Below are positions 15,493-49,372 of a DNA stretch of 64,000 nt, piece after piece (the stretch's first letter is position 1; each line of letters opens with the position of its first letter). Under the pieces are notes generated by a model, which worked only from the letters and a program-made list of their open reading frames with translations, made no database searches and had not been told where the DNA came from. Position numbers and translations under genes: made by a program. Origin of the DNA: Aeromicrobium sp. PE09-221 (GTDB lineage Bacteria; Actinomycetota; Actinomycetes; Propionibacteriales; Nocardioidaceae); assembly GCF_002174305.1 (NCBI RefSeq), contig NZ_MIJB01000009.1, positions 1 through 64,000 on the forward strand, read 5' to 3'.

Positions 15493-16119
15493 TTAGCCTG
15501 GGTGTCCGGCCATGCGCAGCGCCAGCTCCGCATAGTGGTCGGCCACCTGCGTGAGCGTCAGTCGGCCGTGCTCGCGGAACCAGGTGAAGACGTACTCGCA
15601 CATCGTCGCGATGGCGAAGGAGGTCACACCGATGTCGTCGATCCGGAAGGTCTTCTCCTCGACGCCCTGCGCGAGGATGTCGCGGAGCAGGGTCAGATAG
15701 GGGCGGCCGAACTGGTTGAGGGCGGCCTGGCCCTCCGGCGATAGCGACGAGGCGAGATTGGCGTAGCCGAAATTGGAGTGATCGCCCAACTCGGTCAGCT
15801 GGATCTCGACATAAGCGCGAATATACGCCTGCATCCGGGTCACGGCATCGGCTTCCGGGATCGCTCCCGAGAGCACGTCGTAGGTGCGGCGGTACAGCGA
15901 ACTCAGGACCTCGGCGAGCACATCCTGTTTGGATGGAAAGTGCCAATAGATAGCTGCCGGAGTCATCGATGCCGCGCGGGCGATGCGCGTCATCGAGGTT
16001 CCCTCGTATCCGAACTCTTGGAAGAGGCGCGTCGCTGACGTCAGGATGCGCTCACGGGCAGAGCCGTCTTGGAGGCCATCGCGGGAGGCGTCCGCGATAT
16101 CCGGGCGCGGAGAGGTCAT
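15493..16119 (-). CDS. TetR-family regulator, paralogue of the one at 37.4-38.0 kb
   Basis: 208 aa. TetR helix-turn-helix at about residues 25-70: ILTSATRLFQEFGYEGTSMT, then RIARAASMTPAAIYWHFPSK. The C-terminal ligand domain ends CEYVFTWFREHGRLT.TQVADHYAELALRM, nearly repeating the C-terminus of the regulator at 37370-37990, so the two are duplicates. The ATG at 16117-16119 lies inside a perfect ATGACGTCAT palindrome (16118-16127). Divergent from an acyl-CoA ligase gene, with two copies of the GC-rich island motif between them, a layout mirrored by its paralogue and the ABC permease operon. Confidence 0.9.
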   Translation of the reverse strand: MTSPRPDIADASRDGLQDGSARERILTSATRLFQEFGYEGTSMTRIARAASMTPAAIYWHFPSKQDVLAEVLSSLYRRTYDVLSGAIPEADAVTRMQAYIRAYVEIQLTELGDHSNFGYANLASSLSPEGQAALNQFGRPYLTLLRDILAQGVEEKTFRIDDIGVTSFAIATMCEYVFTWFREHGRLTLTQVADHYAELALRMAGHPG

Positions 16120-16194
16120 GACGTCATCGTACGGTGATTCGTCGCCATCGCGGCCATGCCGGGTCCGTTTCGATCGCGGCCGTCCGGGCATCAT

Positions 16195-16207
16195 CCCCCG
16201 GCCGGGG
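16195..16207 (+). promoter_or_regulatory. Island motif copy CCCCCGGCCGGGG
   Basis: Part of a perfect 14-bp palindrome, 153 bp before the acyl-CoA ligase start and 76 bp before the TetR start. Matches CCCCCRNNYGGGY except at the last base. Confidence 0.5.
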
Positions 16208-16302
16208 GAGCCGGACCCGGAGATGACGGTGGAGGCCTCGGACACGTCGTACGGTTGGTGCCTCGATGCTCCCCGGCTCCTTGCCGTTCGGGCGTCGATC
16301 CT

Positions 16303-16315
16303 CCCCGGCCGGGGG
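16303..16315 (-). promoter_or_regulatory. Island motif copy CCCCCGGCCGGGG (opposite orientation)
   Basis: Second copy of the palindromic element, 45 bp upstream of the acyl-CoA ligase start, at promoter distance. Confidence 0.5.
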
Positions 16316-16359
16316 ATTTCCGTGCACATTCATGGACGAGAAAATGTTTTGAGACGAAG

Positions 16360-17928
16360 ATGGAGACCATGAGGAGCGAACTGCCGAAGAGCGTCCTGAC
16401 TGAACTCTACGACGCATCAGCGGACGTGGGCGATGCTGTTTTTCTCGTCTTCGACGACGTGGATGTCAGCTACCGCGATGTACGAGCGGTCGTCGACCGA
16501 TTCGCGGCCAACCTCCTCGACGCTGGGATCGTCGCGGGGGACCGGGTGCTGGTCTTCCTGCCCAATGGCCTGGCCGCAGTGTGCGGCTGGCTCGGGACCC
16601 AGCGGATCGGCGCGATCGATGTCCCTGTGGCTGTGGAGTCGACCGGCGCGTCGCTCGCGCACGTGGTGAGCGAGGTCGCCCCCCGCGCAGTGCTGACGAC
16701 CGACGATCTCCTCGAACGCCTCCTCGCCGCGGCACCGGCCGAGTCGGTCGAGCTGATCATCGTCGACGGATCGAGCGAGGACTCGGCCGACCGACGGATC
16801 GTCCGGTTCGACGACATGATCACGCTCGAGGGCGAACCACACCTGCCGGAGATCCCCGATCTCTCGACCACCGCGACCGTCATGTTCTCCTCGGGATCGA
16901 CCGGGCCGCCGAAGGGCGTCATGCATGCCCACGGCTACTATGCGCAGACGACGCGGGCCTATGACGAGATCTATCAGCTGCCCGAGCGCCCCATCTTCTA
17001 TTGCACGCAGCCGCTGTGCCACATCGATCCCCGCATCATCGTCCTTGACACCCTGCGTCGCCGCGGCAAGCTGGTGTTGAAACGGCGATTCAGTGCATCC
17101 GGGTACTGGGCCGATGTCGAGCATCACGACGCGGATGTGTTCATCTTCATCGGGGCGATGCTGCACCTGATCTTCAAGCAGACGCCGTCAGCCGCCCCCT
17201 CCCGTCGGCGGCTGGGTCTGGGTTCGGCGATCCCGACCGACATCCACGCCGCCTTCTCGGAGCGCTTCGAGGTCGAACTCATCGAGGGCTATGGGATGAC
17301 CGAGCTGTACGCGATGACCTGCCAGCGTCCGGGGGAGCGCCACCCCGGCAATGTGGGGAGCGAGCTACCCACCGTCGAACTCCGTGTCGTCGACGAGCGC
17401 GACCAGCCGGTTCCCGACGGCACCACGGGCCAGCTCCTCGCCCGTCCGCGCTTGCCATTCGCCCACATGCAGGGGTACTGGGGCCGTCCGGAGGCCACCG
17501 TGGAGGCCTGGCAGGGACTGTGGTTCCACACGGGGGACCTGATGCGCCGACTCGAGGACGGGACCTTCCAGTACGTCGGCCGGCTGAAGGACTCCATCCG
17601 TCGACGTGGCGAGAATGTGTCGGCATGGGAGGTCGAGCGCGCGGCGCTGAAGCACCCCAATGTGCTCGAGGCGGCGGCGATCGGAGTACCCGCCGCCGTG
17701 GGCGATGAGGACGTGGCGCTCTTCGTGATCCCTCGAATGGACGCGACCGTCGACCCGCGGGAACTGCGCGATCTCATGGCCGAGGACTTGCCGCGCTATG
17801 CGCTTCCGCGTTTCGTGGAGCTGACGACCGACCTGCCCAAGACCCCGTCCGAGCGGGTCGCGAAGGCGCTGCTCCGCGAGCGAGGTCTGAGCGACCGAGT
17901 GAGCGATCTCGCCCCAGAGCGTCGCTGA
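16360..17928 (+). CDS. Class I acyl-CoA ligase (CaiC-like AMP-binding enzyme), copy 1
   Basis: 522-aa adenylate-forming enzyme that activates a carboxylic acid to its CoA ester. Motifs: P-loop SSGSTGPPKGVMHAHG, A5 EGYGMTELYAMT, A7 GLWFHTGDLM, A8 RLKDSIRRRGENVSAWEVE, catalytic Lys in KTPSERVAKALLRERG. The CTQPLCHIDPR segment and gene size resemble crotonobetaine/carnitine-CoA ligases, but the acid is unknown. Close paralogue at 42432-44009. Two starts are possible (ATG at 16360 or 16369); I use the first. Divergent from a TetR gene and convergent with a binding-lipoprotein gene. Confidence 0.9.
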   Translation: METMRSELPKSVLTELYDASADVGDAVFLVFDDVDVSYRDVRAVVDRFAANLLDAGIVAGDRVLVFLPNGLAAVCGWLGTQRIGAIDVPVAVESTGASLAHVVSEVAPRAVLTTDDLLERLLAAAPAESVELIIVDGSSEDSADRRIVRFDDMITLEGEPHLPEIPDLSTTATVMFSSGSTGPPKGVMHAHGYYAQTTRAYDEIYQLPERPIFYCTQPLCHIDPRIIVLDTLRRRGKLVLKRRFSASGYWADVEHHDADVFIFIGAMLHLIFKQTPSAAPSRRRLGLGSAIPTDIHAAFSERFEVELIEGYGMTELYAMTCQRPGERHPGNVGSELPTVELRVVDERDQPVPDGTTGQLLARPRLPFAHMQGYWGRPEATVEAWQGLWFHTGDLMRRLEDGTFQYVGRLKDSIRRRGENVSAWEVERAALKHPNVLEAAAIGVPAAVGDEDVALFVIPRMDATVDPRELRDLMAEDLPRYALPRFVELTTDLPKTPSERVAKALLRERGLSDRVSDLAPERR

Positions 17929-18017: not shown

Positions 18018-19109
18018 TCAGCCGGAGGTGATCCGCGTCCACTCCTGGAGGGCTTCGTCGACATTCTCGGTCCAATAGTCCACGTCGTAGTTGATGCGTT
18101 CTCGGATCTTGTCCTCATTGAAGTCGGGCATCCACGGCTCGAAGGCCTCGGGGACCTCGATCCCCGATTCCTGGAGGCCGCCCACCGTCGCCGGGCCATA
18201 GGCGGCGTGCTTGCTGAATCCCGCCTGGCCGTCCTTCGTCGCGAGGAACCGGAGGAACTCGCTGGCCGCTTCGGTGTTCTGCGAATCCTTGACCATATAC
18301 GCGGCGTCCCAGGCAAAATACGTCGTATCCCAGACGATGCCGATATTTTCCCGCGCGGCTTCCGGTAGGACGGCGGCTCGGCCGAAGTAGAAGAGGCTCA
18401 TGGCATAGTCGCCCGTCTGGATGGTCTCACCCACCTGCGACAAGGTGTCTTGCAGAACGAGGTCACCGCCCAGGCTCCCCATGGCATTCTCGACTCTCGT
18501 CCAGTCGATCGGATAGATGTCCTCCGTCGCGACGCCGTCGGCGGCGAGGAGTGGTTCGGCCGTGCTGGTCGGATAGTTCCACAGGACGCGTTTGCCGGGG
18601 AACCTCTCGGTGTCCATGAAGTCGGTGATGGCCGTCGGAGGGTCATCACCGAAGAGCTCCTTGTTGTACATCAGGCCGACGGCCTGGATCATGATCGGGA
18701 CACCGCAGTCGTCAGTGACGTACTGGGGATCGATGTCGCTCATGTCGATATCGGCGGGTCGCTTCTCGAACAGGGTTCCGCAGTTCGAGGCACCGACTGC
18801 GACGTCATTGTCGACGACATCCCACGTGACTTTGCCGCCCTCGACCATCGCCTTGATCTTGGCATTGTCTGTCGGGCTGTCGGTCGTCCACTTCACGCCG
18901 GTCTGCTCGGCGAAGGGCTCCAGCCAGCCCTGCTCGGCGGCTTGCATCGAGGAGCCGCCCCAATTGACGAAGACGAACTGCTCTCCGCTCAGATCGGACC
19001 CGCCCGAGCTTTGGTCGCCGCCGGCGTCGTCGCTGCCCCCGCAGGCGGCAGTGAGCAGGGCGATACACGAGACTAGGGCAGTTGCCTGGATCAACTTCTT
19101 CTGCTTCAT
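18018..19109 (-). CDS. PotD-like ABC transporter substrate-binding lipoprotein, copy 1
   Basis: 363 aa, spermidine/putrescine-type binding protein. Signal peptide with lipobox LLTAACGG (Cys23). Mature part: FVFVNWGGSSMQAAEQGWLE, then TWDVVDNDVAVGASNCGTLF, WNYPTSTAEPLLAADG and the C-terminal EEFxxWMPDFNEDKIxxxxNY pattern, ending NEVDEALQEWTRITSG-like. The 41.2-kb paralogue shares all of these, the 45.1-kb one less closely. No permease gene is adjacent, so it may dock with the only permease set at 38.2-41.0 kb. An island motif lies 112 bp upstream. Confidence 0.92.
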   Translation of the reverse strand: MKQKKLIQATALVSCIALLTAACGGSDDAGGDQSSGGSDLSGEQFVFVNWGGSSMQAAEQGWLEPFAEQTGVKWTTDSPTDNAKIKAMVEGGKVTWDVVDNDVAVGASNCGTLFEKRPADIDMSDIDPQYVTDDCGVPIMIQAVGLMYNKELFGDDPPTAITDFMDTERFPGKRVLWNYPTSTAEPLLAADGVATEDIYPIDWTRVENAMGSLGGDLVLQDTLSQVGETIQTGDYAMSLFYFGRAAVLPEAARENIGIVWDTTYFAWDAAYMVKDSQNTEAASEFLRFLATKDGQAGFSKHAAYGPATVGGLQESGIEVPEAFEPWMPDFNEDKIRERINYDVDYWTENVDEALQEWTRITSG

Positions 19110-19250: not shown

Positions 19251-20915
19251 TCACGTCGACCGCAGCTGCGCCCGCAGTTCGGTCTTGATGAACTTGCCGG
19301 ACGGGTTGCGGGGGAGCCCTTCGGTTCGTATCTCGATGACCGACGGAATCTTGAAGGCCGCCAGATGCGGCGACACGAAGGCAACGAGACCATCCTGGTC
19401 GAGCGTGCTCCCCGGACGGACGACGATGACCGCGGCCACCTGCTCGCCCAGGCGACGATGCGGGATGCCGCATACGGCGGCTTCGAGCACGTCCGGGTGC
19501 TCGTAGAGCGCGGCCTCGACCTCGGCGGAGTACACGTTCTCTCCGCCGCGCACGATCATGTCCTTCAGGCGATCGTCGATGAACACGCGACCGTCGGCAT
19601 CGAGATGGCCGATGTCCCCGGTGCGCAACCAGCCCTCGTGGAGGGTCGCCGCTGTCGCATCGGGCCGGTTCCAGTAGCCGCGGAAGAGCGATGGGCCGCG
19701 CAACCAGATCTCGCCCCGGTCGCCTACCGGGAGGGGCTCCAAGGTCGTCGGATCGTGGATCGCGACCTGCATCGGCGGCGCGACCCTGCCGGTGCTCTCG
19801 GGGAAGGCATGGGCTTCGTCGCCGGAGATCGCCGGCCCCAGCGCGTTCGTCTCGGTCATGCCGTAGCCGAAGGCGGGTGCGGCGCGGTCGAATTGTTCGC
19901 GGATCTGCGTGAGCAGCGCGGGTGGGGTTGTGGCTCCGCCGCCACCGATCCACCGCAGGGACGAGGTGTCGAACTCGTCGAATCGCGGGTGGTTCACCAG
20001 GTCGAAGGTCTGAGTCGGAACCCCGATGAACACGCTCAGCCGCTCGGACTCGATCATGCGGAGGGCCTCCTCAGGGTCCCAGCGTCGCATGACGACCAGT
20101 TTCATCCCGCTGTTCAGGGCGCCGAGCATGACTGAGACGCAGCCGGTGACGTGGAACAGCGGGATCCCCAGGAGCGCCGCCGGGGGTTCCGCCGGCTCGG
20201 CGTCCCCGAGCATGAGGGCGTCCACGGTCTCCATCGCCGCGGCTCCCCAGACGGCATGGATGACCGCTCGATGGGTCGACACGGCGCCCTTGGGTCGACC
20301 TGTCGTGCCGGACGTATAGAGCAAGGTCGCGTCGTCATCGGGCGCGATGTCGACAGCGGGAAGCGGCCCGGGCCGCAGGACGTCGGTCCAGGTGGAGAAG
20401 TGTTCCTGTGCGGCCGACCCGCGCACGATCACGACCGGGATGCCGCGCGTCGCGGTCAGCTCGCCGATGAGCTCCGCCCGCGGCTGGTCGGCGATGAGCA
20501 GCGACGGTGCGCTGTCCTCGATCCCGTAGGCCAACTCGCCGCCGGTCCACCAGCTGTTCAGCGAGACGCAGATCCCTCCCACCGAGGTGATCGCGATGAA
20601 CGACATGACCCACTCGGGACAGTTCCGCATCGCGACGGCCACCCGATCGCCGGGACGGATGCCGTACCGCTCCACGAGGGCGACCGCGAAGGCGTCGGCA
20701 CCGGCGAACAGCTCGCGGAATGACAGGCGCTCGTCCCCGTAGACGAGCGCCGTCGCGTCACCGGCGGTACGTGCCTGGGCGAAGAACTCACGCAGCGACC
20801 CAGGTGCCTGGACGAAGACCTGCTCGACTGTTCCATCGGAGCGCCTCAGGTCGACCATCTCGAAGGGAGCTCCCGGTGCTGTGAGCCTCGCCAGCGCCTC
20901 GGCGTGAGAAGTCAT
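19251..20915 (-). CDS. Acyl-CoA ligase (medium/long-chain fatty-acyl type)
   Basis: 554-aa AMP-forming ligase distinct from the two CaiC-like ones. Motifs: LLYTSGTTGRPKGAVSTH, GYGMTETNALG, GWLRTGDIGHLDADGRVFID, DRLKDMIVRGGENVYSAEVE, and the acyl-transfer Lys in RNPSGKFIKTELR. The ATG at 20913-20915 gives MTSHAEALARLTAPG; upstream in-frame Met codons lie beyond the regulatory motif and have no family match. It is followed by the lipoprotein gene at 18018-19109, but a motif-bearing gap of 141 bp suggests separate promoters. Confidence 0.9.
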   Translation of the reverse strand: MTSHAEALARLTAPGAPFEMVDLRRSDGTVEQVFVQAPGSLREFFAQARTAGDATALVYGDERLSFRELFAGADAFAVALVERYGIRPGDRVAVAMRNCPEWVMSFIAITSVGGICVSLNSWWTGGELAYGIEDSAPSLLIADQPRAELIGELTATRGIPVVIVRGSAAQEHFSTWTDVLRPGPLPAVDIAPDDDATLLYTSGTTGRPKGAVSTHRAVIHAVWGAAAMETVDALMLGDAEPAEPPAALLGIPLFHVTGCVSVMLGALNSGMKLVVMRRWDPEEALRMIESERLSVFIGVPTQTFDLVNHPRFDEFDTSSLRWIGGGGATTPPALLTQIREQFDRAAPAFGYGMTETNALGPAISGDEAHAFPESTGRVAPPMQVAIHDPTTLEPLPVGDRGEIWLRGPSLFRGYWNRPDATAATLHEGWLRTGDIGHLDADGRVFIDDRLKDMIVRGGENVYSAEVEAALYEHPDVLEAAVCGIPHRRLGEQVAAVIVVRPGSTLDQDGLVAFVSPHLAAFKIPSVIEIRTEGLPRNPSGKFIKTELRAQLRST

Positions 20916-20969
20916 CTCGCGAGTGTGATGGGTATCGCCCCCGATGGGAAGGCCACGCCAGGTGTCCAC

Positions 20970-20982
20970 ACCCGGGTGGGGG
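20970..20982 (-). promoter_or_regulatory. Island motif copy CCCCCACCCGGGT
   Basis: Minus-strand copy 54 bp upstream of the acyl-CoA ligase start at 20915. Identical to the first 13 bases of the copy at 38027-38040. Confidence 0.65.
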
Positions 20983-21040
20983 ACCGGGTTGGGCCAGAGG
21001 AACCACGACCGGCCCGCGCGACGAGGGGCCGATCGCACCC

Positions 21041-22028: not shown

Positions 22029-23354
22029 ATGTTGCGAACCATCGATGACGAGGCGACGATCGTCGTCGGCGCCGGTCTTGCCGGACTGGTGACCGCATGG
22101 CGACTGCAGGAAACCGGCATGCCGGTCGTGGTGCTGGAAGGGTCGGACCGGATCGGCGGTCGAACCATGACCAGCCGAGACGGATGGGTCGACGGGCAGT
22201 TCGCCAACTACGGCGGAGAGCTTATCTTCCCGGCATTCCACGCTCTGCGCGCCGTATGCGAGGAACTCGGTGTCGAGATCTCCCCGCCGAATGTGATCGC
22301 GGAGCCCGAGCCCGATGACCTGTCCGTCGTCGAGGGCATGGTCCGGGCGGGGAACTTCATCCATCAGGGCACGCTGGTCGACCGCCGCGAGCTGATCGCC
22401 TCCGCGGCACGGATCCGCGCGGCGGTCGAGGCGCATCCGCCGGCACCCCACGAGATCGTCGAACAGTGGGTGCGCCGCGCTGGGCTGGATGGTGTCGATC
22501 GCACCGCATTTCGGGGCGTTGCCCGGATGCTCACCTGCCAGGACACCTGGGACCACGACGTCCACTACCTCATTGGACCGGCGATGACCGATATCCGTCG
22601 TATCAGCGGAGGCACCCAAAGCCTGGCCGATCGCCTCGCGATGGATCTCGATGTGCGACTCGGCCACGAGGTCGTCCGGATCCGCCGAGGAAACGGAGCG
22701 GAGGTGGAGACCTCCGATGGCAGGATCTTCCACGGTGCACGGGTCGTGGTGGCCACCAATCCCTACGCCCTGTCGGGGATCGGCTTCGACCCGCCGCTCG
22801 AGGAGGCGAAGACGTCGACCGTCCTCTCCCTGCTCCCCGCCATGGGCGGCAAGGTCGCCGCACAGTATGCCGAGGGCGATGCCGTGCGGGAGGCGCTGAA
22901 CGCCATCGTCTACACCGACGACGAGATCTGCGCGGCGTGGACGTGCTGGCCCGATGCTCCGTCAGGGCCGGCCGTCGTCATCGGCTTCCTCGCCGGCGTC
23001 CATCGCCACGTCCTGGCTGATGAGGGTGAGGCGATGCGACTCCTGGACGACCTTGTCGCCACGGCGGTCGGCCACCCCGTCACGCGGCTGCACGGCGATG
23101 TCCACAACTGGTGGGCCGACCCGCGGTTCATGAGCATCACGGTCAACCCCAGCGAACACTCCCGGCCGCGGATCGCCGCGGTGATGAGCGGTATCGAGCA
23201 CGACACCCATATCGCCGGCGACTACACCTCGGAGCAGCTCTTCGGAACCCTCGAAGGTGCCGTCCGATCCGGGATCCGTGCCGCGGACGAGATCCTCAGG
23301 GTGCCGACGAGCTTCTCCGCCGATGACATCGAAGAAAGGCTGACGACCCGATGA
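22029..23354 (+). CDS. FAD-dependent amine oxidase, pair 1 subunit A
   Basis: 441-aa flavin amine oxidase of the MAO/polyamine-oxidase fold. Dinucleotide motif TIVVGAGLAGLVTAWRLQ at about 10-27, then VVVLEGSDRIGGRT; the FAD-binding C-terminus reads HIAGDYTSEQLFGTLEGAVRSG. Such enzymes oxidise C-N bonds to imines with O2 or another acceptor. The stop overlaps the next gene's ATG by 4 nt. Its closest match in the window is the protein at 32289-33611, sharing the middle signatures EIVEQWVRRA, CDVHxxIG and NWWADP, which the B subunits lack. Substrate unknown; likely an imported cationic amine. Membrane helices are absent, so it is cytosolic. Confidence 0.9.
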   Translation: MLRTIDDEATIVVGAGLAGLVTAWRLQETGMPVVVLEGSDRIGGRTMTSRDGWVDGQFANYGGELIFPAFHALRAVCEELGVEISPPNVIAEPEPDDLSVVEGMVRAGNFIHQGTLVDRRELIASAARIRAAVEAHPPAPHEIVEQWVRRAGLDGVDRTAFRGVARMLTCQDTWDHDVHYLIGPAMTDIRRISGGTQSLADRLAMDLDVRLGHEVVRIRRGNGAEVETSDGRIFHGARVVVATNPYALSGIGFDPPLEEAKTSTVLSLLPAMGGKVAAQYAEGDAVREALNAIVYTDDEICAAWTCWPDAPSGPAVVIGFLAGVHRHVLADEGEAMRLLDDLVATAVGHPVTRLHGDVHNWWADPRFMSITVNPSEHSRPRIAAVMSGIEHDTHIAGDYTSEQLFGTLEGAVRSGIRAADEILRVPTSFSADDIEERLTTR

Positions 23355-27129: not shown

Positions 27130-27198
27130 CGGTGCTCCTCGGGGGGCGTCGTGGGTGTCGTCGGCCGCATCGCTGACGGGCAAAGGAAGGCAAGCGGC

Positions 27199-27216
27199 TA
27201 AATGATCATTCATTCA
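27199..27216. promoter_or_regulatory. TetR-type operator TAAATGATCATTCATTCA
   Basis: Contains the perfect palindrome AATGATCATT (27201-27210) with a further TGA-ATGA overlap, 70 bp upstream of the TetR start. Shares TAAATGA-NNN-TTCA with the repeat in front of the LuxR gene, indicating autoregulation plus control of LuxR. Confidence 0.65.
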
Positions 27217-27688: not shown

Positions 27689-27740
27689 CCGCCGACCGTA
27701 GGAGAGGCTGGGCAGGTTCAGTGCCGCGCCGAGTGATCTG

Positions 27741-27753
27741 CACCCGAATGGGC
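27741..27753 (-). promoter_or_regulatory. Island motif copy GCCCATTCGGGTG
   Basis: Minus-strand copy 53 bp upstream of the thioesterase start; keeps CCCANNCGGGT but the first C-run is shorter. Confidence 0.5.
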
Positions 27754-38074: not shown

Positions 38075-38087
38075 CCCCCAGGTGGGT
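38075..38087 (+). promoter_or_regulatory. Island motif copy CCCCCAGGTGGGT
   Basis: Second copy in the same gap, 127 bp upstream of the permease start; centre-to-centre distance to the first copy is close to 48 bp. Confidence 0.65.
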
Positions 38088-38213
38088 CCTGTCCTCGGAT
38101 CGGGCTATGAGCTCCCTCGCCTTCTCCCTAGATTGACGTGCACCGGCAGGACCGCCGACGAGGTGTGCCGCTCGGTCCGAATGGTTGCAGCGGAGGGAGT
38201 CGAGGAGCGTGCT

Positions 38214-39931: not shown

Positions 39932-39936
39932 TCGAC

Positions 39937-41213: not shown

Positions 41214-42293
41214 ATGAAACGAAAGAGCGCGATCCGCGTAGTGATCGCCGCGACCTGTCTCGGACTGGCGACGGCCGCCTGCGGCGGCGGGGCGGGGGGT
41301 GGATCGGATGATCAGCAGCTCGACGGTGACAAGTTCGTCTTCGTCAACTGGGGTGGGCAGGCGACGGAGGCCGCGACCAAGGGCTGGCTGGAACCATTCG
41401 CCGAGGAGACCGGCGCTTCCTTCGTGACCGACAGTCCGACCGACAACGCGAAGATCAGGGCGATGGTCGAGAGCGGTCAGGTCACCTGGGATGTGGTGGA
41501 CAACGACATCGGCGTCGGCATGAGCAACTGCGGCACGTTGTTCGAGGAGCTGCCCGAGGACTTCGACATGGGGGAGATCGATCCGCAGTACATCACCGAC
41601 GACTGTTCGGTGCCGATCATCGTGCAGGCCGTCGGGCTGATCTACAACAAGGACACGTACGGCGACAATCCCCCGACCGAGACGGCGGACTTCCTCGACA
41701 CTAAGAACTACCCGGGCAAGCGGGTCCTCTGGAACTATCCGACGGGAACGGTCGAGCCGCTGCTCGCCGCCGACGGTGCGGGTCCGGAGGAGATCTTCCC
41801 GGTGGACTGGGCGCGGGTCGAGGGGATTCTCAACGGCCTCGGCGGTGATCTCGATCTCAAGGAGACGCTGGCACAGGTCTCCGACACTGTCGAGTCGGGC
41901 GACTTCTCCATGTGCTTGTGCTATCTGGGCCGCTTCGCCTCGGCTCCGGAGGAGGTGCAGGAGAAGCTGGGTATTGTCTGGGACAAGACCTATCTCGCCT
42001 GGGACGGCGCCTATGTGGTCAAGGGGTCGAAAAACAAGGATGCTGCCTTCGAGTTCCTTCAGTTCCTGGCTACAAAGAAGGGGCAAGCCGGATTCTCGAA
42101 GCACCTGGCGTACAGCCCCACTACGAAGGACAGCCTGGAAGGCGGCGGAGTCGACGTCTCCGAGGAGTTCGAGCGGTGGCTGCCGGACTTCAACGAGGAC
42201 AAGATCAATGTCCGTTATCCCTATGACTTCGCCTACTGGTCGGACAATATGGACGCGATGCTCGAGGAGTGGAACCGCATCACCTCCGGCTGA
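41214..42293 (+). CDS. PotD-like ABC transporter substrate-binding lipoprotein, copy 2
   Basis: 359 aa with lipobox LATAACGG (Cys23). FVFVNWGGQATEAATKGWLE, TWDVVDNDIGVGMSNCGTLF, FPGKRVLWNYP-like YPGKRVLWNYPTGTVEPLLA, and the ending EEWNRITSG match copy 1 closely. Encoded next to the permease operon but separated by a terminator and own promoter. It is the most likely native partner of the transporter. Ligand: cationic amine or betaine-like, not determinable. Confidence 0.93.
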   Translation: MKRKSAIRVVIAATCLGLATAACGGGAGGGSDDQQLDGDKFVFVNWGGQATEAATKGWLEPFAEETGASFVTDSPTDNAKIRAMVESGQVTWDVVDNDIGVGMSNCGTLFEELPEDFDMGEIDPQYITDDCSVPIIVQAVGLIYNKDTYGDNPPTETADFLDTKNYPGKRVLWNYPTGTVEPLLAADGAGPEEIFPVDWARVEGILNGLGGDLDLKETLAQVSDTVESGDFSMCLCYLGRFASAPEEVQEKLGIVWDKTYLAWDGAYVVKGSKNKDAAFEFLQFLATKKGQAGFSKHLAYSPTTKDSLEGGGVDVSEEFERWLPDFNEDKINVRYPYDFAYWSDNMDAMLEEWNRITSG

Positions 42294-42431: not shown

Positions 42432-44009
42432 ATGGTGATGCAGTTTGATCCGAGCCTGACGCCGGTGCGCGATCTGCGCGATGCGAGCCGAGAGATGCCT
42501 GACCGGCGGTTCTTGACCGTCGGTTCGAGGACCTACACCTATGCCGAGGTCTACGAGCACGTCGAGATGACCGCGAGGGGTTTGCGCTCCCACGGTGTCG
42601 CCGCGGGGGATCGGGTCGTGATCATCGCCCCCAATCGCATCGAGTCTGTGGTCATGTGGTTCGCCGTCCACGCGTTGGGCGCCGTCGACGCCCCCGTGTC
42701 GGTTGAGGCGGCCGGGGCCTTCCTGCGGTATCTAGTCGAGGACCTGGAGCCGACGGTCGTCGTCGGGACGGGGGAGACGTTGGCGATCGTCGGCGCGGCC
42801 ATCGCCGCACCGGTCCCTCTCGCCGTGATCATCGGCGAGGGAGACGATTCCGGGGTGGGGAAGAGCTCGGTGCGCTTCGACGAGCTGGCCGAGCAGGCGG
42901 CAGATGATTCTGACGACATCGTCCTGCCGGATGCCGGGGTTCTGGGCACGATCATGTACTCCTCAGGGACCACGGGTCCGTCGAAGGGGGTCATGCTGGC
43001 GCAGGGCTATTGCTCGTCGCTGGCCGAAGCCCATATCGAGGGTTTCGAGTTGAGCACGGGGCAACGCTTCTATTGCGCACAGCCCCTCTGCCATATCGAC
43101 GCCCGGTCCTCTCTGGTCGATGCCCTGCGGCTACGCGGTGAGAGCGTGATGGGCGAACGGTTCAGCGCGAGCCGGTTCTGGGACGAGGTCCTCCGACACG
43201 ATGCCGATGTGTTCTTCTACGTCGGGACCATGGTCCATCTGCTGATGAAACAGCCCGAGCGGGCCGATCGGCCGCCGAAGCGGCGTATCGGGGTCGGATC
43301 GGCTACCCCGCCCACGCTTCACCACGAGTTCGAGGATCGTTTCAATGTCGTCGCCCTCGAGGGATATGGGTTGACCGAGTTCGCACTGATCGCCGGGCAA
43401 TCGCCGGCATCGAGGGAACCGGGGACCGTGGGCAGACCGCTTCCCTGGGTCGACGTCAGGATCGTCGACGACCAGGATGTGCCGGTCGAGCCGGGTGCCG
43501 TGGGGGAGCTCATCGTCCGCCCCGACGGCCCGAATCTGCACATGCTCGGTTACTGGCGCAAGGATCAGGAGACCGTCCGTGCCTGGAGGGGTCTGTGGTT
43601 CCACACCGGTGACCTCATCCGCGAGTTGCCGACGGGGGCGTTGGAGTACGTGGGGAGGAACAAGGACTCGATCCGCCGTCGAGGCGAGAACGTCTCCGCC
43701 TGGGAGGTCGAGGAGACCGCGGCGCGACATGCTGCGGTGCTCGAGGCCGCGGCGATCGGAGTGCCCTCTGACCTCGGGGAGGAGGATGTGGCGCTGCTGG
43801 TCGTCCCGTCCGGCGCTGAGCCACTCGATCCCGCACGATTGCGGGAGTACATGGCGGCAGACCTGCCGCGGTTCGCGCTGCCGCGCTATGTGGAGATCGT
43901 GGACGAGCTCCCGAAGACGCCGTCGGAGCGCATCGCCAAGGGCGCCGTGCGCGAACGTGGACTGACCTCGGCGGCGATCGACCTCGAGGCGGCGAGCCGG
44001 TCGGCGTAG
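42432..44009 (+). CDS. Class I acyl-CoA ligase (CaiC-like), copy 2
   Basis: 525 aa, paralogue of the 16360-17928 ligase: SSGTTGPSKGVMLAQGY, CAQPLCHIDARSSLVDALR, EGYGLTEFALI, GLWFHTGDLIRELPTGALEY, RNKDSIRRRGENVSAWEVEE, and Lys in KTPSERIAKGAVRERG. Both copies keep the HIDxR segment, suggesting related acids. The ATG at 42432 is used; an ATG at 42438 is possible. Confidence 0.9.
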   Translation: MVMQFDPSLTPVRDLRDASREMPDRRFLTVGSRTYTYAEVYEHVEMTARGLRSHGVAAGDRVVIIAPNRIESVVMWFAVHALGAVDAPVSVEAAGAFLRYLVEDLEPTVVVGTGETLAIVGAAIAAPVPLAVIIGEGDDSGVGKSSVRFDELAEQAADDSDDIVLPDAGVLGTIMYSSGTTGPSKGVMLAQGYCSSLAEAHIEGFELSTGQRFYCAQPLCHIDARSSLVDALRLRGESVMGERFSASRFWDEVLRHDADVFFYVGTMVHLLMKQPERADRPPKRRIGVGSATPPTLHHEFEDRFNVVALEGYGLTEFALIAGQSPASREPGTVGRPLPWVDVRIVDDQDVPVEPGAVGELIVRPDGPNLHMLGYWRKDQETVRAWRGLWFHTGDLIRELPTGALEYVGRNKDSIRRRGENVSAWEVEETAARHAAVLEAAAIGVPSDLGEEDVALLVVPSGAEPLDPARLREYMAADLPRFALPRYVEIVDELPKTPSERIAKGAVRERGLTSAAIDLEAASRSA

Positions 44010-44093: not shown

Positions 44094-44164
44094 AGATCGG
44101 TCCGGCCCCGCCCGGAACCGGGCGGCGAAGGATTATGTCGGTCACGACGGAAGGCGGTAAAGGA

Positions 44165-45052
44165 ATGTCGAAGAGGAATGTCGCGGTCATCGGCCTGGGG
44201 AACATGGGCACCGCGCTTGCGCGAGCGCTTCTTGCCGCTGACCTGCGGGTGACGGTGTGGAACAGGAGCGAGGCCAAGAGCCGCGTGCTTGAGGCTGAGG
44301 GTGCGTGGTGCGCCGTATCGCCAGCGAGTGCCGTGGAGGAGTCCGAGATCGTCGTCGTGTGCGTCGCCGATCATGTGCTCGTCTACGAACTGCTCGACGG
44401 AGCGGACCTTCAGGGTCGTACGGTCGTCATGCTGACCGCCGGCTCTGCCGACGAGTCGCGTCGGCTGGCCGATCACCTGCGCGATCGGGGCGCGCAGTTC
44501 GTCGAGGGGCAGATCGGCACCTATCCCGATGCGGTCGGGACTCCACACAGTCGGATCTTCTACGCGGGGAGCGAGCAGGCGATGTGCGACGCCCGGGCCG
44601 CGACCGAGGCACTCGGCGGTGCGGCGCCGCTCGGCAGCGATATCGGCTCGGTAAGCGGGCTGGCCGCGGCGATCCGGACCTACTATGTTGCCACATCGGT
44701 GACGACGGTTCTGGCGATGGAGGTCGCGAGACGACATGGAGTCCCGCTGGCCACGGCCTTCGCCGAGATCGATCTGCTGCATCCCATCGTGCAGGAGGGA
44801 GTCAGGGAGTCGCTGACGGATGCCGGGCCGACCGAGTCCTCCAGTGAGCGACTGACCCTTGAGAGACTCGCGGACGGTGTCGCCGATCTCGTGGCGCTGA
44901 CTCGCCAGTGCGGCCTCGACCCGTCGATGCTGGCTGAGGCCGAGCGAGTGCTGGAGTTGGCGGTGAGCCGCGGACATGGTTCGGCGGCGGTCGGCACGGC
45001 TTCCCTGGTGCTCGACGCAACCGGCGGACCGACACCGGGCACCGGCGTGTGA
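44165..45052 (+). CDS. NADPH-dependent imine reductase/beta-hydroxyacid-dehydrogenase-like protein
   Basis: 295 aa. N-terminal Rossmann domain VAVIGLGNMGTALARALLAA with NRS (33-35) after the second strand, indicating NADP(H). The central segment VEGQIGTYPDAVGTPHSRIF resembles imine reductases (IREDs), in which this part reads GGIMAxPxxIG, more than 6-phosphogluconate-type dehydrogenases. The C-terminal helical domain is complete. Start at ATG 44165 (RBS AAAGGA); a GTG/ATG at 44135 is an alternative. May reduce a cyclic imine formed by the amine oxidases. Confidence 0.75.
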   Translation: MSKRNVAVIGLGNMGTALARALLAADLRVTVWNRSEAKSRVLEAEGAWCAVSPASAVEESEIVVVCVADHVLVYELLDGADLQGRTVVMLTAGSADESRRLADHLRDRGAQFVEGQIGTYPDAVGTPHSRIFYAGSEQAMCDARAATEALGGAAPLGSDIGSVSGLAAAIRTYYVATSVTTVLAMEVARRHGVPLATAFAEIDLLHPIVQEGVRESLTDAGPTESSSERLTLERLADGVADLVALTRQCGLDPSMLAEAERVLELAVSRGHGSAAVGTASLVLDATGGPTPGTGV

Positions 45053-45055
45053 CAT

Positions 45056-45068
45056 CCCCCACGCGTCT
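45056..45068 (+). promoter_or_regulatory. Half-conserved island motif CCCCCACGCGTCT
   Basis: Keeps CCCCCA but lacks the GGGT half; 76 bp upstream of binding lipoprotein copy 3. Weak call. Confidence 0.25.
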
Positions 45069-45143
45069 ATCAGCTTGGCGCTGGCCCGTCGGAGGGCGGC
45101 CACTCTCACCAGAATGAGCGCACCCGAACACAAGGAGAATCTG

Positions 45144-46190
45144 ATGAAACGAATCGGGATCGTCCTCGCGCTGGCCTCCGTCACCCTGGCGACGGCATGC
45201 GGCAGCGGCGCGTCCTCAGATACGTCCGAGGATGCTCAGAGCCTGGTCTTCGTCAACTACGGGGGCGAGGCGGTGAACGCCGCCGAGGAGGGCTGGTTGA
45301 AACCCTTCTCGGAGGCCACGGGGGTGGAGTACCGGGTGGACTCGCCCTTCGAGGCGGCCAAGGTCAAGGCGATGGTCGATGCGGGCAAGACGACCTGGGA
45401 TCTCGTGACCGTGGATCCGGGGACCAGCGCCAAGGAGTGCGGCACGTTGTTCGAGGAGCGCGATCCCGATATCGACATGGCGGGCATGGACCCGAAGTTC
45501 GTGAATGACGAGTGCGGCGTTCCGGTGTACCCCCAGTCGGTGGTGTTGACGTACAACTCCGAAATGTTCACCGGCGATGACGTCCCGACCTCGATCGCCG
45601 ATTTCATGGATACCGAGCGGTTCCCCGGCAAGCGGATCGCCTATGACTACATCACTACCCTCCCGGCACTGCTGCTCGCCGACGGAGTCGACAAGGACGA
45701 GATCTTCCCACTCGACTTCGATCGCGCCGAGAGCGCCATTGATCGGCTGGGGGCTGATCTCGAGCTCCACTCCGATCTCGCCCAGGAGACGGAGCGGCTG
45801 GCCAATGGCGACTTCGCGATGTGCCTGTGCTTCACCGGACGCGTGGAGACCGGTGCGCGGCAGAATCCGAATCTCGAGATCGTCTGGGACGGGATCTATC
45901 AGACCTGGACGAATGTGGTCGCGGTGAAGCACAGCCAGAGCCCGGAGTCGCAGCAGGAGTTCTTGGCATGGTTGGCCGATCCCGAGACGCAGGCGCCCTT
46001 CTATCAGCACATGGCCTACCGGTCCGCGGCGAAGGACTCTGGACCGGAGGTTCCCGAGAAGTACCGTCGATTCGTCTCGTCGGCTAATGAGGAGGCGGTG
46101 AAGGGTAACGAGGCGGTGACCGATGTGGACTACATGAAGGAGAACCAGGACCTCGTCGTGCAACGCTGGAACGACATGACGGCGGGCTGA
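45144..46190 (+). CDS. PotD-like ABC transporter substrate-binding lipoprotein, copy 3
   Basis: 348 aa, lipobox TLATACGS (Cys19). FVNYGGEAVNAAEEGWLKPF, TWDLVTVDPGTSAKECGTLF, MDTERFPGKRIAYDYITTLP, ending QRWNDMTAG. More diverged than copies 1 and 2: the first strand has NYGG for NWGG and the WNYP segment is replaced by YDYI, suggesting a different ligand. ATG at 45144 after AAGGAG. No permease gene beside it. Confidence 0.9.
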   Translation: MKRIGIVLALASVTLATACGSGASSDTSEDAQSLVFVNYGGEAVNAAEEGWLKPFSEATGVEYRVDSPFEAAKVKAMVDAGKTTWDLVTVDPGTSAKECGTLFEERDPDIDMAGMDPKFVNDECGVPVYPQSVVLTYNSEMFTGDDVPTSIADFMDTERFPGKRIAYDYITTLPALLLADGVDKDEIFPLDFDRAESAIDRLGADLELHSDLAQETERLANGDFAMCLCFTGRVETGARQNPNLEIVWDGIYQTWTNVVAVKHSQSPESQQEFLAWLADPETQAPFYQHMAYRSAAKDSGPEVPEKYRRFVSSANEEAVKGNEAVTDVDYMKENQDLVVQRWNDMTAG

Positions 46191-46191
46191 C

Positions 46192-47007
46192 GTGAGCCAC
46201 GTCGATCTCAAGGCCGGCCGTCCGGTGACCGCGCCTTCCGGACCGGTCGCTGGACGGCTCGGTCGCTTCGACGGCCTGGTCGCCATCGTCACCGGTGGTT
46301 CCCGCGGCATCGGGCTCGCCATCGCGCGGCGGCTCGTAGATGAGGGCAGCCGCGTGGTGATCACCGGCCGCGATCCTCAAGCGCTGGAGGAGGCCGAGGT
46401 TCAGCTCGGCGTGGAGCGGGTCCTGGCGGTCGGCGGAAACACCGAGGACCCCGTCGCTCGCGCTCAGACCGTGAGCCTGGCGCTGGATCGCTTCGGGCGC
46501 ATCGATCTGCTGGTGAACAATGTCGGTGCGATCGGGTCCCGGGGACCGCTGACAGAGATCGCCGAGGATGAGTTCCAGGCCATCGTCCGGACGAACTGCT
46601 TCGGACCGCTCGGGTGGATCGCCGAGGTCGCCACGAGGGCCATGTCCGAGGGCGGGGCGGTCGTCAACATCACCTCGGGTCTGGGACGGACGACATCATC
46701 CCAGCGCATCGGGGCCTACTCGGCCACTAAGGCGATGCTCGAACACCTCACGCGTCAGCTGGCGATCGAGCTCGCTCCCCGGATCCGGGTCAACGCGGTC
46801 GCGCCGGCATTGGTCCGCACTCAGATGGCCTCGCCACGTTTCAAGGGGCGAGAGTCCGAGATCGTCGCCACCTACCCGATGGGCCGTATCGGAGATCCGC
46901 GGGATATCGCGGCCTCCGTCGTCCATCTGCTGTCCCGCGATGCCGACTGGGTCACCGGCCAGTCCGTGGCGGTCGACGGCGGCATCCTGCTGACGAGCGA
47001 ATTGTGA
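46192..47007 (+). CDS. Short-chain dehydrogenase/reductase, copy 2
   Basis: 271-aa classical SDR: IVTGGSRGIGLAIARRLVDE, LLVNNVGAIG, catalytic Ser in NITSGLG, YSATKAM for the YxxxK dyad, VAVDGGILL. It begins 1 nt after the lipoprotein stop, so it belongs to that operon and probably acts on the compound that protein delivers. GTG start; the first 25 residues are unstructured. Confidence 0.9.
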   Translation: MSHVDLKAGRPVTAPSGPVAGRLGRFDGLVAIVTGGSRGIGLAIARRLVDEGSRVVITGRDPQALEEAEVQLGVERVLAVGGNTEDPVARAQTVSLALDRFGRIDLLVNNVGAIGSRGPLTEIAEDEFQAIVRTNCFGPLGWIAEVATRAMSEGGAVVNITSGLGRTTSSQRIGAYSATKAMLEHLTRQLAIELAPRIRVNAVAPALVRTQMASPRFKGRESEIVATYPMGRIGDPRDIAASVVHLLSRDADWVTGQSVAVDGGILLTSEL

Positions 47008-47041
47008 GCCAGGTTCCTGCAACCGGGATCGGGTGAGACCC

Positions 47042-49372
47042 ATGGAAACGAGACGAACGAGTACCCACCTGGGGACCTTCGAGGTGGTGCTCGAGGACGG
47101 CCGCCCGGTGGAGACGCGGAACCTGCCCGATGATCCCGACGGTGCAGCGGCGTCCGCCGGCCTGCACGAGGTGATCGACCATGAGCTGCGGATCACGCGT
47201 CCGCATATCCGTGAGGGGTGGCTCCGGCACGGCCCGACGGGAAGCACGCCGAGGCGCGGCGGCGAAGCCTTCGTCGAAGTCTCCTGGGAGGAGGCCTATG
47301 ACGCGATCGCCGCCGAGCTGACGCGCGTCCGCGAGCAGCACGGGGATGCTGCGGTCTTCGGCGGCTCCTATGGCTGGTCCAGTGCTGGACGGTTCCACCA
47401 CGCGCAGAGCCAGATCCATCGCTTCCTGGCCGTCGACGGCGGGTACACGGCTTCTCGCCACAGCTACAGCGTCGGCGCCCAGGAGGTCGTGCTCCCGCAT
47501 GTCATCGGCGGTTCAGGTATGGCGATGTTCGACGGGAATCCGCAGTGGTCCGCGATCGCCGAGCACGCCGAGCTTGTCATCGCCTTCGGGGGATCGCCGT
47601 TGAAGAACACCTTGGTGAACCAAGGGGGATTGAAGCACCATCGGGCGAGGGACGCGCAGCGAGCCTGCGCGGAGGCCGGTGTGCGCTTCGTCTGCATCAG
47701 CCCGGTCGAGGACGACCTCGACGAGTCGCTGCGGGCGGAGTGGATCCCCATCAGGCCCGGAACCGACACCGCCTTGATGCTGGGCATGGCGCATCGGCTG
47801 ATGACCAGCGGGCGTGAGGACGCCGACTTTTTGGCCAGGTGCTGCGTGGGCTACGAGAACTTCCGCGACTATGTGCTCGGCGAGCTGGACGGAGTCGAGA
47901 AGACACCGGGATGGGCTGAGGAGATCTGCGGGGTACCGAGCGGGGTGATCACCGGGCTGGCCGATGACGCGTCGGCGGTCCGCTCGGTCGTCTCGGTGAC
48001 GTGGTCGATGCAGCGGGCCCAGCACGGCGAGCAGGTCTATTGGGCGGCGGTGACCCTGGCGGCGATGACGGGGTCGATGGGCCGCCCCGGTGGTGGTTTC
48101 GCCGCCGGTCTCAGCGCCACGCACGGGATCGGGCTCCATCGCGGATCGATGGGGGCCGCCAGCTTCCCGCAGGTCCGCAATCGCGTGGACAGCTTCATCC
48201 CCGTCGCCCGGATCTCGGACATGCTGCTGTCGCCCGGGGGGACGCTGGAGTTCAACGGGCAGCGCCTGACCTATCCGGATGTGCGGCTGGTGTACTGGGC
48301 GGGAGGCAACCCGTTCCACCACCACCAGGACCTGAACAAGCTCCTGAGGGCATGGAATGTCCCCGAGACCGTCGTCGTCCATGACTCCTGGTGGACGCCG
48401 GTCGCCCGGCACGCCGACATCGTCATACCGGTGGCGACGACCCTGGAGAGAGACGACATCATCGCCGGGGGCCGGGACACGATGCTTCTGCCGCTCCACC
48501 GCGTGGTCGATCCGCCGGACGGGCTGCCGACCGACTTCGAGGCCTTCTCCCAAGTGGCGGAGCGTCGCGGCCGCCGGCAGGACTTCGACGAGGGACTCAC
48601 CGAGAGGCAGTGGATCGAGCGTCTCTACGACGAGACCACACGCCGAGTGGCGAGGCGGGGCGTGGAGCTGCCGCCTTTCGAAGAGTTCTGGGAGTCCGAG
48701 GGCGTGCAGGTTCCGCTGTCCGTCCCGCCCGAGGCCGATGCCATCGCCGACCTGCGCGCCGACCCGGCTCGGCACCCGCTGAGCACGCCTTCGGGCCGGA
48801 TCGAGATCTACTCCGAGACGGTGGCGTCGTTCGGATACGAGGAGTGTCCCGGCTACGCCTCCTGGCAGGAGCCGCAGGAGTGGATCGGAAGGGCGGATCT
48901 CGATGACTCGATGCTGCACCTGCTCTCACATCAGCCGAAGGGCAAGATCCACAGCCAACTGGATTTCGCCGCGGCCAGCATGCGCCACAAGGCCGATGGG
49001 CGAGAGATCATCCGACTGCATCCGCAGACCGCCGCTGGGCTCGGCATCGCCGACGGGGACACCGTTCGGATCTCGAATGTGCGCGGTTCCTGTCTGGCCG
49101 TCGCGCGACTCGTCGACGGCCTGCACCGACGGGTCGCGTTGATGGCCACGGGAGGATGGTGGGATCCCGAGCGTCCGGGGGAGCCGGGGTCGACCTGCCT
49201 CCAGGGCAATCCCAATGTGCTCACCTCCGATATCGGGACGTCGCGATTGGCTCAGGGGTCCTCGGCGCAGACCTGCATGGTGAGCGTCCGCCGGGAGGCG
49301 GACCCGGCGCCGACCCGGGCGCACCTGCCTCCCGCGACCATCCGCAGAGACGAGTTCGACCAGGGACCATGA
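47042..49372 (+). CDS. Molybdopterin oxidoreductase of the DMSO/TMAO/biotin-sulfoxide reductase group
   Basis: 776 aa, cytosolic (no twin-arginine signal) and without an N-terminal 4Fe-4S motif, like BisC. GSYGWSSAGRFHHAQSQIHR holds the expected Mo-ligand Ser114, which aligns with the Ser of YGWKSPGK in DMSO reductase. Also seen: WAGGNPFHHHQDLNKLLRAW, TLERDDIIAGG, and the C-terminal cofactor domain HLLSHQPKGKIHSQLDFAAA. Family members reduce N- or S-oxides. Here it may reduce an amine N-oxide entering the island pathway, or run as a hydroxylating enzyme. The ATG at 47042 is used; a GTG at 47033 is also open. Last gene of the operon. Confidence 0.88.
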   Translation: METRRTSTHLGTFEVVLEDGRPVETRNLPDDPDGAAASAGLHEVIDHELRITRPHIREGWLRHGPTGSTPRRGGEAFVEVSWEEAYDAIAAELTRVREQHGDAAVFGGSYGWSSAGRFHHAQSQIHRFLAVDGGYTASRHSYSVGAQEVVLPHVIGGSGMAMFDGNPQWSAIAEHAELVIAFGGSPLKNTLVNQGGLKHHRARDAQRACAEAGVRFVCISPVEDDLDESLRAEWIPIRPGTDTALMLGMAHRLMTSGREDADFLARCCVGYENFRDYVLGELDGVEKTPGWAEEICGVPSGVITGLADDASAVRSVVSVTWSMQRAQHGEQVYWAAVTLAAMTGSMGRPGGGFAAGLSATHGIGLHRGSMGAASFPQVRNRVDSFIPVARISDMLLSPGGTLEFNGQRLTYPDVRLVYWAGGNPFHHHQDLNKLLRAWNVPETVVVHDSWWTPVARHADIVIPVATTLERDDIIAGGRDTMLLPLHRVVDPPDGLPTDFEAFSQVAERRGRRQDFDEGLTERQWIERLYDETTRRVARRGVELPPFEEFWESEGVQVPLSVPPEADAIADLRADPARHPLSTPSGRIEIYSETVASFGYEECPGYASWQEPQEWIGRADLDDSMLHLLSHQPKGKIHSQLDFAAASMRHKADGREIIRLHPQTAAGLGIADGDTVRISNVRGSCLAVARLVDGLHRRVALMATGGWWDPERPGEPGSTCLQGNPNVLTSDIGTSRLAQGSSAQTCMVSVRREADPAPTRAHLPPATIRRDEFDQGP

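Follow-up and report, generated by a model that had tools for sequence, protein, structure and literature searches.

A conserved, duplicated gene cluster with paired amine oxidase-type flavoproteins in Aeromicrobium sp. PE09-221, putatively for the catabolism of an amino-acid-like amine

The window considered here comprises 64,000 nucleotides from Aeromicrobium sp. PE09-221 (contig NZ_MIJB01000009.1, or C106 among the 111 contigs of a 4.0 Mb genome). Between 15.5 and 49.4 kb it holds a gene cluster that is real and conserved, and of a catabolic type whose general kind is known. One arrangement of its enzymes is unusual: two unlike flavoproteins, termed A and B below, are encoded by overlapping genes, and the pair occurs twice. 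At about even probability, we read the region as a rare, probably horizontally spread actinobacterial cluster for the catabolism of an amino-acid-like amine, organised in two parallel sets, in which A and B make up a two-subunit oxidase and breakdown proceeds through coenzyme A (CoA) esters. Literature searches, with subscription journals mostly outside their coverage, returned no description of such a cluster, in agreement with the first-pass annotation of this DNA, which had matched it to no known pathway.

In the proposed scheme, an ATP-binding cassette (ABC) importer with a binding protein of the γ-aminobutyrate (GABA)/opine type (in some relatives, an amino-acid permease) would take up a molecule bearing both an amine and a carboxylate. 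A and B, flavoproteins with a monoamine oxidase (MAO) fold, would together oxidise a C–N bond, and NAD(P)-dependent enzymes resembling saccharopine dehydrogenase, DapB and imine reductases would process an imine or a secondary amine. An AMP-forming ligase would generate a CoA ester, which short-chain dehydrogenases/reductases (SDRs) and thioesterases, and in relatives also acyl-CoA dehydrogenases and thiolases, would degrade. Control may be exerted by TetR- and LuxR-type regulators.

The paired oxidase genes

Both pairs lie on the forward strand, with A1 at 22029..23354 and B1 at 23351..24631, and A2 at 32235..33611 and B2 at 33608..34897; in each pair the two genes overlap by 4 nt. The four proteins belong to the monoamine oxidase superfamily, with PF01593 scores of 162.9, 154.5, 149.4 (A2) and 150.7 bits (B2) against a gathering score of 19.8. 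They are 426–458 residues long, A and B share 30–32% identity, and A2 and B2 have counterparts at 62% and 67% in Streptomyces spongiae. A and B are predicted to adopt the monoamine oxidase fold: the 50 fold matches listed for each are without exception amine oxidases (including nicotine and polyamine oxidases), amino-acid oxidases or LSD1/2, and the top match for both is 7rt0, a 4-methylaminobutanoate oxidase. As for the aromatic cage, many A and B rows, inspected by eye, carry Thr or Ser in the column that we equate with Tyr435 of MAO-B. The position that we take to be the flavin-N5 lysine is occupied by lysine in all 79 B rows and in 109 of the 112 A rows. The role of this lysine is described in PMC3608611.

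A limonene-dehydrogenase-type enzyme was considered and rejected. The covalent-flavin motif GF[LR]x[NS][TL]HA near the N terminus is found in none of 77 B proteins, 110 A proteins or the four window proteins; a relaxed version, G[FY]xxxxH[AG], is present in 20 of the 110 A proteins and in no B.

In all nine pairs read, A is directly upstream of B, and in seven of them the genes share a 4-nt ATGA or GTGA overlap. For at least 36 of the 77 close B proteins in the protein database, the matches listed include an A whose contig has the same length (120 of 691 for A, with all 77 B proteins counted); with lengths shifted, chance gives a mean of 0.28 and a maximum of 2. The distances of A and B correlate over 35 pairs (Spearman 0.91; 33 pairs from the database and two from the window, with two contigs excluded where A and B came from different pairs). 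This pattern is consistent with a two-subunit flavoenzyme. No member of the monoamine oxidase superfamily is known to us to have an obligate two-subunit architecture. A bolder version of the scheme, in which an obligate A+B amine oxidase opens an undescribed pathway by oxidising a secondary or cyclic amino-acid-like amine, CoA-ester breakdown follows, and an arginine-less Rid protein serves in the pathway, is tentative and falls short of an even chance.

Alternatively, A and B might be separate oxidases that merely share an operon and act in sequence on different intermediates, forming no heteromer. Each could indeed work alone, since almost every row of either protein retains the FAD-binding start together with the flavin-N5 lysine; however, the adjacency in all nine pairs read, the frequent 4-nt overlap and the co-divergence of the two genes, and a loss of the lysine in three A rows but no B row, make this arrangement somewhat unlikely.

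Duplication, conservation and genomic setting

Gene calls were made with a script of our own, and gene counts are therefore approximate. Of the 31 genes called within 15.5–49.4 kb, local BLASTP pairs 16 with a paralogue in the same region (28% identity, 70% coverage), and 13 still at 35% identity; in 101 overlapping 34-kb windows beyond 49.4 kb on the same contig, the corresponding fraction has a mean of 0.00 and a maximum of 0.08. The duplication of functions proposed in the first-pass annotation is thereby borne out. Each of the two parallel sets comprises a TetR regulator, a CoA ligase, a solute-binding protein, an A+B oxidase pair, a saccharopine-dehydrogenase-like enzyme and a thioesterase. 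Paralogues share 59% (the TetR proteins at 15 and 37 kb), 48% (ligases), 41% (dehydrogenases), 34% (thioesterases), 34% (SDRs), 47% (A1/A2) and 56% identity (B1/B2), and the three binding proteins 61, 45 and 42%. Judging from their nearest neighbours, A1B1 and A2B2 are not a fresh tandem copy: those of pair 1 include sequences from Nocardioides and Streptomyces sp. NPDC005811, and those of pair 2 sequences from Aeromicrobium sp. CTD01-1L150 and S. spongiae. In S. boluensis and Amycolatopsis anabasis, both types of saccharopine-dehydrogenase-like enzyme accompany a single A/B pair, so that the two are probably different enzymes of one pathway and not spare copies. Eight genes in the 34 kb are likely to act in C–N redox chemistry, namely four oxidase, two saccharopine-dehydrogenase-like, one DapB-like and one imine-reductase-like gene. 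An Rfam scan of 15–50 kb gave no family at its gathering score.

A pattern scan of 84,980 species genomes returned 27 loci, of which the seven at 44% or above were taken as the family; the other 20 are distant or partial. The seven are from S. spongiae, S. boluensis, Actinomadura sp. KC216, A. anabasis, A. deserti, Mycobacterium sp. PSTR-4-N and Mycolicibacterium sp. 018. In all five non-mycobacterial relatives, the contig with A and B also bears a ligase (47–51% identity to the 42.4-kb copy), a dehydrogenase (50–59%), an SDR (59–66% for the best copies of the one at 31.2 kb) and a Rid protein (38–43%), a conserved core that spans several actinobacterial genera. When the seven whole genomes were searched, all six ligase matches at E 1e-90, from 64–155 first-look candidates per genome, fell on the A/B contig, as did eight of nine saccharopine-dehydrogenase-like matches at E 1e-15; the co-occurrence is therefore not a background of common genes. 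For the binding protein, nine matches were obtained at E 1e-10, three at 45% or more on the A/B contig and six at 33% or less elsewhere. The largest share is found in S. spongiae, which has an A2B2-like pair, two ligases, two TetR regulators, a LuxR-type regulator, an SDR, a Rid protein, a thioesterase, a dehydrogenase, a binding protein and a PotBCA importer (54–66% identity). The mycobacterial loci, of which 21 kb each were read, contain A/B, the LuxR-type regulator and an SDR, together with a distant ligase and an imine-reductase-like gene. Little or no conservation is seen for four genes, those of the molybdoenzyme, the EamA transporter, the PNPOx-like protein and the DapB-like protein.

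The cluster family is rare in actinobacteria, as judged by matches to B1. At E 1e-60, B1 was matched in one of 396 genomes of the phylum, namely its own, and at E 1e-20 in two of 196 genomes of the order, the second match having 32% identity and an internal stop. A plasmid origin was considered as well, but a tblastn search of 72,556 plasmid records with B1 gave no match at E 1e-30.

On the left flank, an 88% match to a genome of the same genus ends exactly at the 3' end of a tRNA-Met gene (4044-4118), and none continues past position 4118. The last 35 bases of the tRNA are repeated at 6698-6732, 2.6 kb downstream; a 30-base piece of it occurs nowhere else in the genome when two mismatches are allowed. 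By sequence, the tRNA-Met site looks like an integration hotspot. When the 120 kb after the tRNA were compared by blastn with the 70 kb that follow the tRNA in the relative, nothing matched at E 1e-10, and together with the end of synteny this places the cluster in an accessory region next to the tRNA; its far boundary was not found. An open reading frame (ORF) at 4140-4496, following the tRNA, encodes an excisionase-like helix-turn-helix protein (by eye).

Given that the tRNA marks the end of synteny with the nearest relative and that the DNA beyond is accessory, the genes could in principle be a chance pile-up at an integration hotspot. This is very improbable as a general account. For the core it is contradicted, since whole-genome controls back the finding that these gene families stay linked in other genera; it may hold for three genes, those of the molybdoenzyme, the EamA transporter and the third ligase.

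Uptake, substrate and accompanying genes

Gene calling and Pfam/NCBIfam scans of the called proteins recovered all the genes that the first-pass annotation had named, in their places. It had not named the Pot-type permeases and ATPase (38.1-41.0 kb), the LuxR-type regulator (25.8 kb), the tRNA-Met boundary (4.1 kb), the third TetR regulator (26.5 kb), the third AMP-forming ligase (19.3 kb) or the remnant of a truncated thiamine pyrophosphate (TPP)-dependent enzyme. Its notion of an amine catabolic island holds for the conserved duplicated modules, the amine oxidase fold, the CoA ligases and the uptake of amino-acid-type ligands, while its details concerning Rid, CaiC, PotD and an N-oxide find no support.

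The importer genes are all on the forward strand. They encode a PotB-like permease (38082..39137; BPD_transp_1; 141 bits against the NF007044 cut-off of 348), a PotC-like permease (39140..39931, start approximate; NF007047, 164 bits, cut-off 326) and a PotA-type ATPase (39919..41025, start approximate; 66% in S. spongiae), which exceeds the cut-off of TIGR01187 (365.6 versus 355.6 bits) and stays below that of the narrower model NF006987 (360 versus 482 bits). Solute-binding lipoproteins are encoded at 18018..19109 (−; set 1; SBP_bac_8; 61% to the 41.2-kb copy), at 41214..42293 (+; set 2; GABA/opine-receptor-like, PDB 9d57, 6dgv, 4eq7, 5l9g and 6hly) and, as a third copy, at 44976..46190 (+; SBP_bac_8; 45% and 42% to the other two; coordinates of the ORF, with the true start further in). 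These had been labelled PotD-like, but the 41.2-kb protein is nearest to GABA sensors and to receptors for GABA, mannopine and agropine, which outrank the spermidine/putrescine-binding chain (E 6e-43 to 2e-22 versus 2e-19).

For the GABA receptor Pf622/iGABASnFR2, eight residues in contact with GABA have been named, one of them engineered in the sensor (PMC12999171). Mapped by hand onto the alignment of structural homologues, with residue letters checked, four of these are identical in the 41.2-kb protein (Trp9, Arg205, Asp228 and Tyr264, corresponding to W46, R240, D264 and Y300), one is changed conservatively from Trp to Tyr, and three differ. The Asp bonds the amine of GABA, and the Arg is named beside it (PMC12999171); the 41.2-kb protein thus retains both, and its Arg may bind a carboxylate.

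Further substrate hints come from the relatives. Four have an amino-acid permease (two by profile scan, two by homology), and in the stretch read of these four no homologue of the binding protein was seen; two relatives besides the window have amino-acid-type binding proteins. Three have a semialdehyde-type dehydrogenase; the closest model is that of NADP-dependent succinate-semialdehyde dehydrogenase (471 bits, cut-off 730). On the nicotine plasmid pAO1, Mao is paired with a dehydrogenase of the succinate-semialdehyde type, and at the end of nicotine breakdown it converts N-methylaminobutyrate to succinate semialdehyde (PMC6122326). Taken together, the oxidase folds, binding protein, permease and semialdehyde-type dehydrogenase recall this end of the pAO1 route, and by analogy the best guess for the substrate would be an N-substituted γ- or ω-amino acid. 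For an arecoline/guvacine pathway, another candidate considered, the literature search gave one paper, a review on medicinal-plant breeding.

The AMP-forming ligases of set 1 (16336..17928, start approximate, +; PF00501; 56% to the S. spongiae homologue) and set 2 (42432..44009, +) score 417 and 435.8 bits against NF004808 (cut-off 722). They had been called CaiC-like, but reach only 207.0 and 191.8 bits with the crotonobetaine/carnitine-CoA ligase model NF005947, whose cut-off is 651. A third ligase (19251..21038, −) has steroid-24-oyl-CoA synthetase CasG as its nearest model; a steroid-type pathway, suggested by this model, was rejected, the score lying under the cut-off (452.9 versus 750 bits).

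The saccharopine-dehydrogenase-like oxidoreductases of set 1 (28386..29546, −; PDB 4ina and 8deb; 54% in S. boluensis, 50% in A. anabasis) and set 2 (36049..37200, −) both contain the N-terminal NADP domain PF03435 (56.5 and 66.3 bits, cut-off 25.1); for the C-terminal domain PF16653, with a cut-off of 31, the 36.0-kb protein scores 33.2 and the 28.4-kb protein 28.1 bits. An NAD(P) enzyme resembling DapB and 2,4-diaminopentanoate dehydrogenase (24628..25602, +), whose gene overlaps B1 by 4 nt, matches PDB 7xdu (E 2e-11) and 6iaq (E 4e-6), scores 47.7 bits with NF040740 (cut-off 400) and hits no Pfam family at E 0.001. The protein encoded at 44135..45052 (+) is homologous to imine reductases of known structure (8jku, E 2e-32, and many others). 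The DapB-like and imine-reductase-like members are thus present, as described in the first-pass annotation, but weak in relatives, with the imine-reductase-like protein matched at 28–30% at best.

The Rid-family protein (30796..31200, −; PF01042) had been taken as evidence of RidA imine chemistry. Imine hydrolysis by RidA-type deaminases requires an active-site arginine, Arg105 in Escherichia coli TdcF (PMC4433059). Inspected by eye, the six cluster Rid proteins share no arginine column in the C-terminal part that would hold Arg105; alignments to archetypal PDB chains end before the site, and the nearest chain, 5v4f, likewise has no arginine there. A pattern search of the retrieved DNA found no archetypal RidA proteins. 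The arginine-less Rid is kept beside the flavin amine oxidases in five of the seven related clusters, and PMC4433059 calls the role of this kind unknown.

A BisC/TorA-type molybdoenzyme (47033..49372, +) scores below the cut-offs of the N- or S-oxide reductase models (TIGR00509, 850.5 versus 1017.55 bits; TorA TIGR02164, 565.2 versus 1465 bits). A tblastn search of the seven related loci or contigs revealed no counterpart at E 1e-10, the sole match being one of 26% in the distant locus L020; the N-oxide step envisaged earlier is thus without comparative support.

Several relatives carry additional genes, for cytochrome P450, flavin-monooxygenase-like proteins, an N,N-dimethyl-4-nitrosoaniline (NDMA)-dependent alcohol dehydrogenase, acyl-CoA dehydrogenase, MaoC and thiolase, and their substrate may be larger or alicyclic. 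One could thus envisage the degradation of an alicyclic or terpenoid amine or hydrocarbon, with A/B oxidising a ring carbon (as in cyclohexylamine oxidase or CtmAB), followed by a Baeyer-Villiger step and β-oxidation. The ferredoxin reductase genes found along with those just listed, the α/β hydrolase and flavin-monooxygenase-like genes adjoining one another in A. anabasis and S. boluensis, and the precedent of CtmAB and δ-24 desaturase as flavoenzymes with two unlike subunits (PMC11061730, PMC4109377) speak for such a pathway. We nevertheless regard it as unlikely: the CtmAB His-flavin motif is missing from all A and B proteins searched, the best folds are amine oxidases, amino-acid-type binding proteins and permeases belong to the clusters, and the Pfam scan of the window region revealed no extra oxygenase genes.

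Locus L005 (12353-20288) and the contigs of A. anabasis and S. boluensis also show Radical-SAM/SPASM, creatininase-family and glycosyltransferase genes beside A/B, a group that seems to resemble the mycofactocin cluster; an NDMA-dependent alcohol dehydrogenase that passes its cut-off is on the same contig. In Actinomadura sp. KC216 (L056, 6882-10262), a biotin-carboxylase-like and carboxyltransferase-like pair near A/B hints that breakdown may end in propionyl-CoA or a branched acyl-CoA.

A biosynthetic role, in making an alkaloid-like amine, is improbable. The clusters do include an imine reductase, a P450, SDRs and large regulators of LuxR type; but they also include importers and an amino-acid permease, the thiolase and acyl-CoA dehydrogenase genes speak for breakdown, and Pfam scans of 40 window proteins and 36 from relatives, whose contigs hold 320 ORFs, most of them unscanned, showed no ketosynthase or condensation domain.

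Several observations count against the catabolic two-subunit scheme. Gene pairing by itself is no proof of a heteromer, and the A–B correlation comes without a housekeeping control. The lysine is lost in three A rows (P0218, P0220 and P0224), one of them from Mycolicibacterium sp. 018, and the two mycobacterial genomes contain, genome-wide, no ligase at E 1e-90 and no dehydrogenase at E 1e-15; the core is therefore not universal. R240 is missing from the S. spongiae binding protein and D264 from the third window copy. The Rid protein lacks the imine-hydrolase arginine, and the DapB-like gene is hardly conserved (27% match in one relative). The P450, flavin-monooxygenase, acyl-CoA dehydrogenase and thiolase genes of relatives suggest a carbon skeleton larger than GABA. 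On the contig of the window, the nearest such genes, for an acyl-CoA dehydrogenase (38%) and, in an enoyl-CoA-hydratase-like stretch, a second enzyme (36%), are about 60 kb away from the cluster at 109-112 kb; a thiolase counterpart was not found up to 124 kb at E 1e-25.

The putative regulators include three of TetR type, at 15493..16329 (−; set 1; PF00440 and PF17932; an ORF whose true start is probably further in), 26527..27213 (−; profile match; 54% in S. spongiae) and 37370..37990 (−; set 2; profile match; 46% in S. spongiae). A LuxR/NarL-type response regulator (25819..26514, +; GerE and Response_reg) is a conserved partner of A/B, with homologues in six of the seven relatives at 51–71% identity. 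Thioesterases of 4HBT type (PF13279) are encoded at 27248..27958 (−; set 1) and 29696..30256 (−; set 2), and SDRs (PF13561) at 31227..32006 (−; start approximate) and 46192..47007 (+; 47–50% in four relatives). The remaining genes specify a VOC/methylmalonyl-CoA-epimerase-like protein (27881..28315, +; PF13669; 58% in Amycolatopsis deserti), a PNPOx/F420-type oxidoreductase-like protein (30199..30720, −; PF01243; TIGR03618, 64.1 bits, cut-off 79.05) and an EamA-type transporter (35030..35962, +; PF00892), no counterpart of which was seen in the related loci or contigs. A short ORF at 21186-21836 contains just the middle domain of a TPP-dependent enzyme and is probably a gene remnant.

Outside the cluster, the stretch 7430-13499 carries iron-siderophore ABC importer-like genes (by eye) and a 684-aa ORF that joins a siderophore-interacting protein to an O-methyltransferase domain. 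A single ORF at 13446-15074 contains an AraC-type helix-turn-helix twice and looks like a fusion of two AraC regulators, and at 49451-54104 a Type I phosphodiesterase adjoins a phosphonate-type ABC importer.

Comparison with known systems

Monoamine oxidases and imine reductases are employed in making chiral amines. If the proposed scheme is correct, the cluster adds a route by which natural amines are broken down, together with a paired enzyme of monoamine oxidase fold. Its tie to a flavin amine oxidase cluster turns the role of the arginine-less Rid proteins, a kind treated in PMC4433059, into a testable question.

The nearest solved fold is that of pAO1 Mao (7rt0). A and B have in common with it the fold, the FAD-binding start and the flavin-N5 lysine, but identity in the fold alignments is 21–22%, and A and B differ in being encoded by two unlike genes that stay paired. 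Limonene dehydrogenase CtmAB and steroid δ-24 desaturase likewise have two unlike flavoprotein subunits, with a mutual identity of 26–27%, compared with 30–32% for A and B. CtmAB, however, is of COG1233 type, is encoded by genes of 1698 and 1650 bases and has a covalent His-flavin motif, whereas A and B are shorter proteins without this motif. Cyclohexylamine degradation, in which cyclohexylamine oxidase is followed by cyclohexanone monooxygenase, shares the amine oxidase fold, and some relatives add flavin-monooxygenase-like and hydrolase genes; no such monooxygenase was found in the window, which instead has extra CoA ligases and saccharopine-dehydrogenase-like and imine-reductase-like genes. 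CaiC is, like the window ligases, a member of the AMP-forming ligase family, yet the latter fall far short of its model and are not CaiC. With the PotABCD polyamine transporter, finally, the importer shares an ATPase above the TIGR01187 cut-off and PotB/PotC-like permeases, while its binding proteins look closer to GABA/opine receptors than to PotD.

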